Positions 9,802-41,677 of a DNA stretch of 64,000 nt are shown piece by piece; positions within the stretch are counted from its first letter, which is position 1, and each line of letters opens with the position of its first letter. The stretch is from positions 248,001-312,000 of the forward strand of contig NZ_JACHOT010000004.1 of the NCBI RefSeq assembly GCF_014200015.1, given 5' to 3'. The translations under genes were made by a program, and so were the position numbers. The notes below the pieces were generated by a model. That model had not been told where the DNA came from and made no database searches. It saw only the letters and a program-made list of their open reading frames with translations. This DNA comes from Aminobacter niigataensis. GTDB lineage: Bacteria; Pseudomonadota; Alphaproteobacteria; Rhizobiales; Rhizobiaceae.

Positions 9802-9911
9802 AAATTCCGCGACGAGTTCCACTCCGAGCGGCCGACCGGGACGCCCTTAGCGGCACAAAACGATCCCGGAGGCCAACACCCGGCAGCGCAGTGCGCCCCC
9901 GGGTGCTTTTT
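9802..9911 (+). ncRNA. candidate small RNA or attenuated leader upstream of ffh
   Basis: In the 344-base stretch 9638-9981 without a gene, a good promoter and a strong terminator bracket about 110 nt. No convincing ORF is seen. The SRP RNA tetraloop motif GGAAGCAGC is absent, so this is not 4.5S RNA. It could be a free-standing sRNA, or the terminated leader of ffh, whose start is 70 nt beyond the terminator. Confidence 0.4.
9877..9911 (+). terminator. intrinsic terminator between the leader promoter and ffh
   Basis: CACCCGG (9877-9883) pairs with CCGGGTG (9899-9905); the loop can form an inner GCGCA/TGCGC stem. CTTTTT follows directly. Confidence 0.7.
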
Positions 9912-9981
9912 GGTTTGGTTCGCAGTCGCAGAGGCATTACCTCTCGGTTCGCCACCGGTTGGCTGAGAGAAGGGAAGTTGA

Positions 9982-15527: not shown

Positions 15528-16562
15528 TCAGGCCGCCTTCTTCTTCGGCGCAATCAGGCCGCGCTCGACCAGCAGTTCGGCGATCTGCACGGCGTTGAGG
15601 GCGGCACCCTTGCGTAGATTGTCGGAGACGATCCACATCGACAGGCCGTTGTCGATGGTCTGGTCCTCGCGGATGCGCGAGATGTAGGTCGCATCCTCGC
15701 CGGCCGAGTCGAGCGGGGTGGCGTAGCCGCCGTCCTCGCGCTTGTCGATGACCAGGCAGCCCGGCGCTTCGCGCAGGATGTCGCGTGCCTCGTCGGCGGT
15801 GATCGGCTTGTCGAATTCGATGTTGACGGCTTCCGAGTGGCCGATGAACACCGGCACGCGTACGCAGGTGGCGGTCAGCTTGATCTTGGGATCGAGCATC
15901 TTCTTGGTCTCGGCGACCATCTTCCACTCTTCCTTGGTCGAGCCGTCGTCCATGAAGACGTCGATGTGCGGAATGACGTTGAAGGCGATGCGCTTGGTGA
16001 ACTTCTTGGCTTCGACCGGGTCGGCGACGAAGACGGCACGCGTCTGGGTGAACAGCTCGTCCATGCCTTCCTTGCCGGCGCCCGAAACGGACTGGTAGGT
16101 GGATACGACGATGCGCTTGATGGTGGCGGCGTCGTGCAGCGGCTTGAGCGCCACGACCAGCTGGGCCGTCGAGCAGTTCGGGTTGGCAATGATGTTCTTC
16201 TTGGTGAAGCCGGCAATCGCGTCCGGGTTCACTTCCGGAACGATCAGCGGCACGTCCTGGTCATAGCGGAAGGCCGACGAGTTATCGATGACGACGCAGC
16301 CCTGCTTGCCGATCTTGGGCGACCATTCCTTGGAAATGTTGCCACCGGCCGACATGATGCAGATATCGGTGTCGGAGAAGTCATAGGTGTCGAGAACCTT
16401 GACCTTCAGCGTCTTGTCGCCGAACGACACTTCGGTGCCGAGCGAGCGGCGCGAGGCCAGTGCGACGATCTCATCGACCGGAAAGCCGCGTTCCTCGAGG
16501 ATGTTGAGCATTTCCCGGCCGACATTGCCCGTGGCGCCGACGACTGCAACCTTGAAACCCAT
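15528..16562 (-). CDS. asd: aspartate-semialdehyde dehydrogenase
   Basis: Reduces aspartyl phosphate to aspartate semialdehyde, the branch point to lysine/diaminopimelate, threonine and methionine. The 344-residue length is standard. The NADP-binding motif GATGNVG is at residues 9-15, the catalytic Cys is C130 in NPNCSTAQL, and the conserved HSEAVNIEF block follows. The start at 16562 has AGGAG nine bases upstream. A long leader (about 260 nt) with a Thr/Lys/Met-rich peptide ORF and alternative hairpins precedes it. The gene ends in a hairpin. Confidence 0.97.
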   Translation of the reverse strand: MGFKVAVVGATGNVGREMLNILEERGFPVDEIVALASRRSLGTEVSFGDKTLKVKVLDTYDFSDTDICIMSAGGNISKEWSPKIGKQGCVVIDNSSAFRYDQDVPLIVPEVNPDAIAGFTKKNIIANPNCSTAQLVVALKPLHDAATIKRIVVSTYQSVSGAGKEGMDELFTQTRAVFVADPVEAKKFTKRIAFNVIPHIDVFMDDGSTKEEWKMVAETKKMLDPKIKLTATCVRVPVFIGHSEAVNIEFDKPITADEARDILREAPGCLVIDKREDGGYATPLDSAGEDATYISRIREDQTIDNGLSMWIVSDNLRKGAALNAVQIAELLVERGLIAPKKKAA

Positions 16563-16578
16563 ATCGAAAATCTCCTGT

Positions 16579-16653
16579 CCCTCTCCGCTCGCTTCTGGAG
16601 AAAACCCGCTGGCCGTTGCGGGCTTCATCCCCCGGGCCGGACCCGGGAGAGGG
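16579..16653 (-). promoter_or_regulatory. candidate attenuator of asd: competing hairpins between leader peptide and asd
   Basis: Reading the minus strand after the leader stop codon: CCCTCTCC (16653-16646), a CCCGGG-TCCGG-CCCGGG hairpin (16647-16631), then CCCGC-N8-GCGGG (16622-16605) directly followed by TTTT, a terminator-like hairpin. GGAGAGGG (16586-16579) just before the asd ribosome site is an exact 8-bp complement of CCCTCTCC. The two local hairpins and the long-range stem share bases, so they could be alternatives. The folding is by eye only. Confidence 0.5.
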
Positions 16654-16671
16654 TGAGCAGGCCAAGGGAAA

Positions 16672-16806
16672 TCACACCGTTTTGGTGGTGGTGGTTTTGG
16701 CCATGGTTTTGGTCGAAAGCAGGGACGCGGTTGCGCGCCCGGCACGATGGTTGGCATCGTGGCCGGGGAAGTCGAATGCGAAAAGCGCCATCAAGAGGCC
16801 GCGCAT
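16672..16806 (-). CDS. candidate asd leader peptide, 44 aa, ending in Thr/Lys/Met-rich run
   Basis: ATG at 16806 (AGGGAACC upstream) opens a 44-codon ORF that stops at 16672, 109 bases before the asd start codon. Its last 13 residues are TKTMAKTTTTKTV: seven Thr, three Lys and one Met, with four ACC codons in a row. Thr, Lys and Met are the end products of the pathway that Asd feeds. This is the layout of ribosome-mediated attenuation leaders such as thrL of enteric bacteria. The rest of the peptide has no notable feature. I know of no described asd leader peptide of this type in Rhizobiales. Confidence 0.6.
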   Translation of the reverse strand: MRGLLMALFAFDFPGHDANHRAGRATASLLSTKTMAKTTTTKTV

Positions 16807-16830
16807 CGGAGGGTTCCCTGTTCGCCGCCG

Positions 16831-16858
16831 CTTTTAGCCGGTTTGCGTGGAGAGTCAA
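16831..16858 (-). promoter_or_regulatory. candidate promoter of the asd leader transcript
   Basis: TTGACT (16858-16853), 16-base spacer, TAAAAG (16836-16831), predicted start near 16824, about 18 bases before the leader ATG. Confidence 0.5.
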
Positions 16859-16951: not shown

Positions 16952-17338
16952 ATGGAAATCCTGTCGAAACGCGTCCCCATCGTCGCCACGCTGGCTGCGG
17001 CTGCCATGTTCACCCTGCCGGCACTTGCCCATCACGGCTGGTCCTGGACCCAGGACGGCTTTTTCGAGCTCAAGGGTGTCATCGCCGAAATCTACATCGG
17101 AAATCCGCATGCCACGCTCGACGTCGATGTCGAAGGCGACATCTGGCGGGTGGAACTCGCCCCGCCGGCGAGAACGATCTCGGCGGGCTTCAGCGACGAG
17201 GTCGCCAAAAAAGGCGACGAGGTCACCGCGATCGGAAACCGTTCGCGTGACGAAACCGAAAAACGCATGAAGGCAGTCCGGATCATCGTCAACGGCAAGA
17301 CCTACGACGTCTATTCGGACCGCGTGCCGCCGAGCTGA
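16952..17338 (+). CDS. DUF6152 family periplasmic protein
   Basis: A 128-residue exported protein: signal peptide (residues 1-26, ending ALA) followed directly by HHGWSWTQDGFFELKGVIAEIYIGNPHATLDVDV, the family's conserved HH...W and NPH motifs. It is a small beta-rich domain of unknown function. GGAGGAGC precedes the start. It sits immediately upstream of a four-helix membrane protein gene, with which it is probably cotranscribed. It is divergent from the asd leader. Confidence 0.82.
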   Translation: MEILSKRVPIVATLAAAAMFTLPALAHHGWSWTQDGFFELKGVIAEIYIGNPHATLDVDVEGDIWRVELAPPARTISAGFSDEVAKKGDEVTAIGNRSRDETEKRMKAVRIIVNGKTYDVYSDRVPPS

Positions 17339-17353
17339 GTGGGATCGGGGGAC

Positions 17354-17815
17354 GTGGAGCCGCTGCAGGCTATCGAGCAACTCGACGCCGTCAAGCTGCT
17401 CAAGACCTCGTACTTTGCCTACCCGGTGGTCAATGCGGTCCATATCGCCGCCATCGGCGCCTTGCTCACCTCGGTTGCGCTGATGGACCTGCGCATCCTT
17501 GGCGCCTTTCGCGCCCTGCCGGAGCGCCCCTTCGTGGCGCTTCTCAGGCGACTTGCCTTCCTCGCCTTCGGGGTGGCCGTGCTGAGCGGGCTCCTGCTGT
17601 TTTCGGTGCGCGCGTCGCACTATGCGCAGATGCCGGTGTTTCTCGCCAAGATGAGCCTCATCGGCCTCGCCGGGGCCAATTTCGTGGCGTTCGCCACCGT
17701 CGACAAGGGGCTTGATGCGAGTGTCCGTCCGCCGGCGCCACGCGTGCTTGCCGCAACCTCAATCGTGCTGTGGTGTGCCGTCCTGCTGTGCGGCCGCTTC
17801 ATCGGATTTCAGTGA
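17354..17815 (+). CDS. small integral membrane protein (about 153 aa)
   Basis: Four predicted membrane helices: YPVVNAVHIAAIGALLTSVAL, LAFLAFGVAVLSGLLLFSV, VFLAKMSLIGLAGANFVAFA and AATSIVLWCAVLLCGRFIGF. It resembles hypothetical membrane proteins that neighbour DUF6152 genes; I cannot name the family with certainty. The start is GTG at 17354, or GTG at 17339 directly after the upstream stop. The two genes likely form an operon. His in the first helix (NAVHIAA) is suggestive of a heme or metal site but this is a guess. Confidence 0.72.
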   Translation: MEPLQAIEQLDAVKLLKTSYFAYPVVNAVHIAAIGALLTSVALMDLRILGAFRALPERPFVALLRRLAFLAFGVAVLSGLLLFSVRASHYAQMPVFLAKMSLIGLAGANFVAFATVDKGLDASVRPPAPRVLAATSIVLWCAVLLCGRFIGFQ

Positions 17816-41377: not shown

Positions 41378-41587
41378 ATGGCTACTGGTACCGTTAAATT
41401 CTTCAATGCCACCAAAGGTTTCGGCTTCATTGCACCCGACACCGGCGAGCAGGACGTGTTCGTCCACATCTCGGCCGTCGAGCGTGCCGGCATGCGCACC
41501 ATCGTCGAGGGTCAGAAGCTGAACTTCGACGTCGTGCGCGACAACCGCAGCGGCAAGAACGCAGCCGAGAATCTTCAGGCTGCCTAA
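41378..41587 (+). CDS. cspA: cold-shock protein
   Basis: A 69-residue OB-fold RNA chaperone. RNP1 is KGFGFIAP and RNP2 is DVFVHIS; start MATGTVKFFN is canonical. AAAGG precedes the ATG. A leader of about 130 nt is typical for csp mRNAs, which refold at low temperature. A terminator lies 63 bases downstream. Confidence 0.96.
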   Translation: MATGTVKFFNATKGFGFIAPDTGEQDVFVHISAVERAGMRTIVEGQKLNFDVVRDNRSGKNAAENLQAA

Positions 41588-41650
41588 CGCATTGCTTCCG
41601 GCCGCTGACCACGGATGAACTGGCATCGGCCGTCGAGGCAATCAGGAGAA

Positions 41651-41677
41651 GGTCGGGAGTTCCCGGCCTTTTTCGTT
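41651..41677 (+). terminator. terminator between cspA and the next small gene
   Basis: GGTCGGG-AGTT... pairs with CCCGGCC (one G-T), then TTTTTCGTTT. The next gene's ribosome site (AGGAG) begins four bases after it. Confidence 0.75.

Follow-up and report, generated by a model that had tools for sequence, protein, structure and literature searches.

A putative threonine- and lysine-responsive leader-peptide attenuator upstream of asd in Aminobacter niigataensis and across much of the Rhizobiales

In Aminobacter niigataensis, the gene for aspartate-semialdehyde dehydrogenase (asd) is preceded by a short open reading frame (ORF) that ends in a run of threonine (Thr) and lysine (Lys) codons and almost certainly belongs to a leader-peptide attenuator. 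The product of the enzyme is the branch-point intermediate for Lys, Thr, methionine (Met) and isoleucine (Ile) and, via the Lys branch, for cell-wall diaminopimelate. In Escherichia coli, asd is under multivalent control without a leader peptide. The stretch analysed here, referred to as the window, comprises 64,000 nucleotides (nt) of assembly GCF_014200015.1 (contig NZ_JACHOT010000004.1, positions 248,001 to 312,000), numbered from its first letter. Comparison of the window with related loci indicates that a Thr/Lys leader before asd extends over much of the Rhizobiales. The whole system is probably a ribosome-mediated Thr/Lys attenuator that turns asd on during starvation and off, probably, by closing its ribosome site. 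That both Thr and Lys are sensed is quite likely, while for ribosome-site closure as the main OFF step we see an even chance.

The proposed mechanism would adjust asd expression to how much charged Thr-tRNA and Lys-tRNA is available. If either amino acid were scarce, the ribosome would stall on the codon run and leave segment A, located immediately behind the leader stop codon, bare (Table 1). A would then pair with segment A' in a long hairpin with segment B in its loop, and the asd ribosome site would be open (ON). With Thr and Lys in ample supply, the ribosome would reach the stop codon and mask A, its footprint extending to ∼13 nt past the first stop base; A' would then fold into hairpin H1, B would pair with segment B', and the asd ribosome site would be closed (OFF). 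Premature termination at a weak hairpin with TTTT (H2) may contribute in the Aminobacter/Mesorhizobium branch. The elements, their conservation and their pairings were read from the sequences and their comparison. From these we infer the kinetics, the OFF step and the ON/OFF direction, the last because of the classical geometry of leaders outside the order, where stalling bares A and completion masks it.

The leader lies on the strand of asd, with 109 nt between its stop codon and the asd ATG (16562). Its tail, ...TKTMAKTTTTKTV before the stop, holds 7 Thr, 3 Lys and 1 Met among the final 13 residues. With AGGGA at 8 nt from its ATG, the leader has a ribosome site that is fair at best. All 22 loci of the window's family that were compared (window included) carry the predicted -35 element TTGACT upstream of the leader, although further up in one of them (L113). 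TTGACT is followed by TAAAAG in 12 loci and by a variant (TACAAG, TAAAAC, TAAACA, TAATAG or TAAGAG) in nine, and nothing clear was seen in the remaining one, L065. Transcription would start near 16824, ∼7 nt downstream of the -10 element. The arrangement, a short ORF in the 5' leader on the asd strand with a promoter predicted from sequence upstream of it, is that of an attenuator. A preliminary description of the window had reported a 44-codon ORF with its own ribosome site and promoter 109 bases before asd, the same composition of its final 13 residues, and behind it a CCCGGG hairpin, a hairpin with TTTT and an 8-base-pair (bp) match beside the asd ribosome site. All of these were found where it had placed them. 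As a separate observation, the asd frame is open far upstream of its ATG (16757..15528, minus strand; 409 codons from an upstream ATG) and crosses the leader region in another frame, which looks like chance in GC-rich DNA.

Table 1. Positions of the leader, its predicted RNA elements and asd in the window
Feature	Coordinates	Strand	Description	Basis
-35 element (predicted)	16853..16858	minus	TTGACT	Sequence and family comparison
-10 element (predicted)	16831..16836	minus	TAAAAG; 16-nt spacer to -35	Sequence and family comparison
Leader ORF	16672..16806	minus	44 codons, MRGLLMALFAFDFPGHDANHRAGRATASLLSTKTMAKTTTTKTV then stop; end KTTTTKTV	
P0 (predicted)	16675..16690	minus	4-bp hairpin inside the Thr/Lys/valine codons, CACC ACCAAAAC GGTG	Wobble complementarity, RNAalifold
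Segment A	16654..16671	minus	Begins right after the leader stop; predicted partner A'	Swap test, helix score, alignment, RNAalifold
Segment B	16646..16653	minus	CCCTCTCC; predicted partner B', next to the asd ribosome site	
Segment A' with H1	16627..16645	minus	CCCGGG-type hairpin; the same A' bases can pair with A or within H1	Alignment
H2	16600..16625	minus	Terminator-like hairpin with TTTT; absent from the Rhizobium-type loci examined	Sequence
Segment B'	16579..16586	minus	GGAGAGGG; predicted to pair with B	
asd Shine-Dalgarno	16572..16576	minus	AGGAG	Sequence
asd	15528..16562	minus	Aspartate-semialdehyde dehydrogenase	NCBIfam PRK14874 and TIGR01296 matches

Conservation was assessed in 297 asd upstream regions (window included), taken from 80 named genomes, the best 80 among the matches listed, and from further genomes of the same order and family. 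A leader qualified if an ORF ended 60-170 nt before asd and its last 12 codons included 4 or more for Thr. Loci passed on the Thr threshold alone, and Lys was weighted by half in the choice of frame. A qualifying Thr-rich end was present in 223 of the 297 regions. The opposite strand gave 1 in 297, and Markov-model sequences gave 9 in 1485, so that the Thr-rich leader before asd is far beyond chance. The leader ORF and its Thr/Lys run are thus conserved among relatives, a comparison that had been suggested for the locus, and the run encodes end products of the pathway, as in known attenuators. Qualifying leaders occurred in 103 of 127 loci of the family sample and, in part of the order sample, in 57 of 89 loci and 16 of 23 family codes. 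The 297 regions include near-duplicates, and one species may occur twice across the sets; clustering brought the number to 95.

The codon run points to two amino acids. Over the last 12 residues in the 95 clusters, Thr makes up 46.3% and Lys 20.8%, whereas the 24 residues before them contain 6.5% Thr and 2.2% Lys. Lys is present in the last 12 residues of every cluster (95/95). Met, which had been proposed as a third signal next to Thr and Lys, is not enriched (1.9% versus 3.8%) and was rejected, while the Thr and Lys parts of that proposal are supported. Ile was likewise considered and shows no enrichment across the order (3.0% versus 3.8%), although single loci carry it, for example Aureimonas L048 with TLTKTTITI. 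No similar leader was seen in the upstream stretches examined of hom, lysC and thrC in the same genome. A pattern search of that genome with AARACNACNACN was abandoned as too unspecific, with 88 matches against 71 for a reversed-pattern control.

Two mutually exclusive helices, A:A' and H1, share the bases of A', and both are supported by the comparison; A itself starts at the stop codon. When partners were swapped between clusters, A fitted its own A' better than the mean of the partners from other clusters in 80 of 95 cases (p = 7e-12). The best duplexes of A with the stretch 24-64 nt past the stop ranged from -14.6 to -31.8 kcal/mol in 45 loci hand-picked to span the set, and a contiguous helix score of at least 7 was reached by A:A' in 65% of 123 clusters compared to 25% of shuffles. 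H1, in which B meets A', gave 61 of 95 in the swap test. In alignment A1 (46 rows), standard pairs filled 86.8% of the cells of A:A' and 86.7% of those of P0 and H1 together, and the best slid versions had 71.7% and 63.8%. None of 500 shuffles matched either structure in paired cells or in covariation score. RNAalifold, unprompted, recovered four A:A' pairs and three of the four P0 pairs, both sets with some compensatory changes, as well as three further pairs, at a consensus energy of only -2.4 kcal/mol.

P0 is a small predicted hairpin within the control codons themselves. Among 132 loci ending in ACN ACN NNN NNN ACN GTN, the wobble positions of the second and the last Thr codon are complementary in 124, as are those of the first Thr codon and the valine (Val) codon (124/132). 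Three combinations, GACC/GGTC, GACG/CGTC and CACC/GGTG, together account for 117 of the 132. In the non-redundant alignment, complementarity is found in 40 of 46 rows at each of the two pairs. Such pairing would account for the nearly constant Val at the leader end. What P0 does falls outside what the attenuation model explains.

The 8-bp match had been described as a sequence complementary to one beside the asd ribosome site, and this complementarity recurs. The pyrimidine segment B, between A and A', is complementary to a purine stretch next to the asd ribosome site, and their helix score is at least 7 in 74% of the 123 clusters compared to 20% of shuffles. The letters change between loci: CCCTCTCC/GGAGAGGG, GCTCTCT/AGAGAGC, CGCTCCCC/GGGGAGCG and CTCCCGC/GCGGGAG. 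B:B' and H2 were tested by segment and not by alignment columns, because the whole-length MAFFT alignment is too gappy downstream of H1. A direct pairing of A, instead of B, with the asd ribosome site, which served as a negative control for the helix score, was rejected (15% compared to 20% of shuffles; swaps 51/95). The exclusivity of A:A' and B:B' is partly topological, with an overlap of at least 2 nt in 50 of 94 cases. The attenuation that had been suspected from the window alone is well supported in its main parts, with the codon run, its position before asd and the competing helices all conserved.

Several observations weigh against this reading. Regarding the leader itself, 74 of the 297 loci lack a qualifying one, including all 20 sampled loci of seven family codes, and a few of the 74 are near misses in Thr number or distance (the Bartonella leader ends in KKTTKKII). 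The peptide body is weakly constrained, with 65, 40 and 37 changes at third, first and second codon positions and 37 synonymous against 43 other substitutions in 15 disjoint pairs. Regarding the helices, the A:A' partner ranks within the best tenth in just 29 of 95 clusters, and shuffles of alignment A1 reach the counts of pairs changed on both sides in 125 of 500 cases for P0 with H1 and in 279 of 500 for A:A'. Two slid versions of A:A' have more double-change cells than A:A' itself (17 and 16 versus 14). The outer pair of P0 is G-C in 38 of 46 non-redundant rows, so that few independent events lie behind its covariation. For B:B', the swap test is not significant (own partner better in 54 of 95 clusters), and the location of B inside the span from A to A' in 94 of 94 cases is nearly forced by the windows used. 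Partition-function folding of the 123 clusters, with A masked rather than bare, raised the cost of opening the asd ribosome site in 41 and lowered it in 53; for the stretch just upstream of that site the numbers were 40 and 57. Masking A thus did not close the site consistently. This ensemble folding with ribosome footprints leaves out kinetics and crossing helices. For a stretch reaching into asd the cost was lower in 84 of 123, which we ascribe to the shorter RNA.

The off-switch could instead be that of a classical transcription attenuator, in which ample Thr would let H2 (16625..16600, with TTTT) stop RNA polymerase, while stalling would free A to pair with A' or to bind H2 at its GGCC loop and 3' arm, so that transcription passes. 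We regard this as somewhat unlikely. H2 does pass a crude terminator test in the window, as do U-tailed hairpins of its kind at 32 of the 77 loci that share the window's type, the window counted among them. Judged by its sequence, A (CCCTTGGCC) can in addition bind GGCCAGCGGG, the loop and 3' arm of H2. The U tract in the window, however, is four long and then interrupted by C, and such a hairpin is found in 0 of 47 Rhizobium-type asd loci and in 7 of 99 other members of the order, yet A, A', B and B' persist. Because the terminator is weak in the window and none was detected in any of the 47 Rhizobium-type loci, premature termination is an unlikely conserved step, and the 8-bp match next to the asd ribosome site makes a better candidate for the OFF step.

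Leaders outside the Rhizobiales speak for the proposed leader-peptide attenuator and also lend some weight to termination. Thr/Lys leaders precede asd in 4 of 46 loci of other alphaproteobacterial orders (L312, L315, L326 and L349), and each is followed by a terminator-like hairpin. Three of these hairpins (L312, L315 and L349) carry a U tail, and behind the one in L326 comes TTCGTCGTT. By eye, the segment behind the stop codon can in all four pair with the 5' arm of the downstream hairpin. When L312, L315 and L326 were folded, the minimum showed a switch in L315; in L312 and L326 it kept the terminator-like hairpin in both states, a further point against the proposed switch. In other classes of the phylum, a Thr/Lys leader was found at none of the 19 asd loci whose start was recognised. 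A tentative scenario, to which we give somewhat less than an even chance, is that a bivalent Thr and Lys sensor at the last step common to both branches began as a terminator attenuator in part of the Alphaproteobacteria and was rebuilt in the Rhizobiales as a translational switch, A:A' against B and the ribosome site, with P0 inside the control codons.

A sensor for Thr alone, in which the Lys codons would merely keep the RNA open (AAA) and space the Thr codons, is unlikely. The codon usage speaks for it: AAA makes up 191 of 237 leader Lys codons in the 95 clusters, although AAG dominates the asd genes of the 80 named loci (AAG 1783 and AAA 118 of 1901), and AAA sits in the P0 loop in the window's family. 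The Lys signal could thus in part reflect a need for A-rich, unfolded RNA, which also counts against dual sensing. Lys is nevertheless retained in every cluster, including families with other leader ends, and the four leaders from other orders have it as well; moreover, asd is the last step common to the Lys and Thr branches.

It is highly improbable that the peptide acts by nascent-chain arrest, the sequence KTTTKTV before the stop stalling the ribosome in response to a signal other than charged tRNA. In the window's family this end, with its near-constant Val, is strikingly fixed and almost invariant apart from variants, but the Val is explicable by P0 pairing. Other families retain the composition and not the sequence, and the ends across families include KTTTKTV, TKTTTTT, KTTKTTPTA and TTTTTTTKV; the varying residue order at constant composition therefore argues for control codons and not for an arrest peptide. 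A functional small protein merely encoded upstream of asd, without a regulatory link, is scarcely credible: the likely counterpart in Sinorhizobium meliloti is translated (PMC10117765), but the peptide body is weakly conserved, and the codon run and RNA pairings are what is kept.

The Rfam covariance models, including that of the gammaproteobacterial Thr leader, gave no match to the asd leader at gathering score, and up to E = 5 there were two chance-level matches on the other strand to unrelated families. The Thr leader family of Rfam represents thrL, which in the E. coli type precedes thrABC and contains Thr and Ile codons and a strong terminator. thrL and the asd leader are both short ORFs with a Thr run serving aspartate-family synthesis; thrL differs in its position before thrABC, its Thr and Ile codons and its strong terminator. 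The LEU element before leuA of Actinobacteria also combines a leader-peptide codon run with Shine-Dalgarno pairing. There the Shine-Dalgarno box is paired by the codon run itself, and a pseudoknot has been proposed (PMC1262725), but in the asd leader the separate segment B would take this part. The trpE leader of S. meliloti (peTrpL/rnTrpL) is likewise an alphaproteobacterial leader-peptide attenuator; it is a leaderless ORF of 14 residues that responds to tryptophan by transcription attenuation, yielding a small RNA (PMC10117765, retrieved sections), features that set it apart from the asd leader.

Part of the present finding was anticipated in print. SEP5 of S. meliloti is a Thr/Lys-rich small protein encoded before a gene given as 'aspartate dehydrogenase', for which translation was demonstrated by Ribo-seq and Western blot and a leader-peptide function was suggested; its conservation was said not to reach beyond Sinorhizobium (Hadjeras et al. 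2023, PMC10117765, retrieved sections). Its position directly before asd is our reading, since neither 'asd' nor 'aspartate-semialdehyde' occurs in the main text of PMC10117765. SEP5 is likely the same leader as the one described here, because several loci of the window's family (L188, L191, L201 and L207, ending in KTTAKTTTKTV) end with exactly six Thr and three Lys. Both are Thr/Lys-rich leaders, and in the retrieved sections SEP5 is described without RNA structure or mechanism. A literature search, whose scope left most subscription journals outside, found no asd leader in Rhizobiales beyond PMC10117765; the retrieved text of PMC8632094, PMC2965389, PMC1262725 and PMC4117421 contains none. 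The preliminary description had regarded a leader before asd as unknown in Rhizobiales and the sensor as new. The proposal for Sinorhizobium precedes it, and what is new is the extent over the order, the pairing of Thr and Lys at the branch-point enzyme and the paired RNA elements.

Divergent from the asd leader, two ORFs occupy 16952..17815 (plus strand); by eye, the one of 128 residues has a signal-like start and the one of 158 residues is membrane-like, and an NCBIfam search gave no match to either. Elsewhere in the window, Rfam matched the alphaproteobacterial small RNAs ar35 and ffh, at 41555..41677 (plus) and 9862..9913 (plus).

If the proposed attenuator is real, one gene would answer both the Thr and the Lys branch through a single leader. 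It may also be a traceable case of an attenuator whose off-switch moved from transcription to translation with the sensor and the first helix unchanged. The comparison further points to a much wider range for the SEP5-type leader, which was published as a feature of Sinorhizobium alone and seems to occur in a large part of the Rhizobiales.
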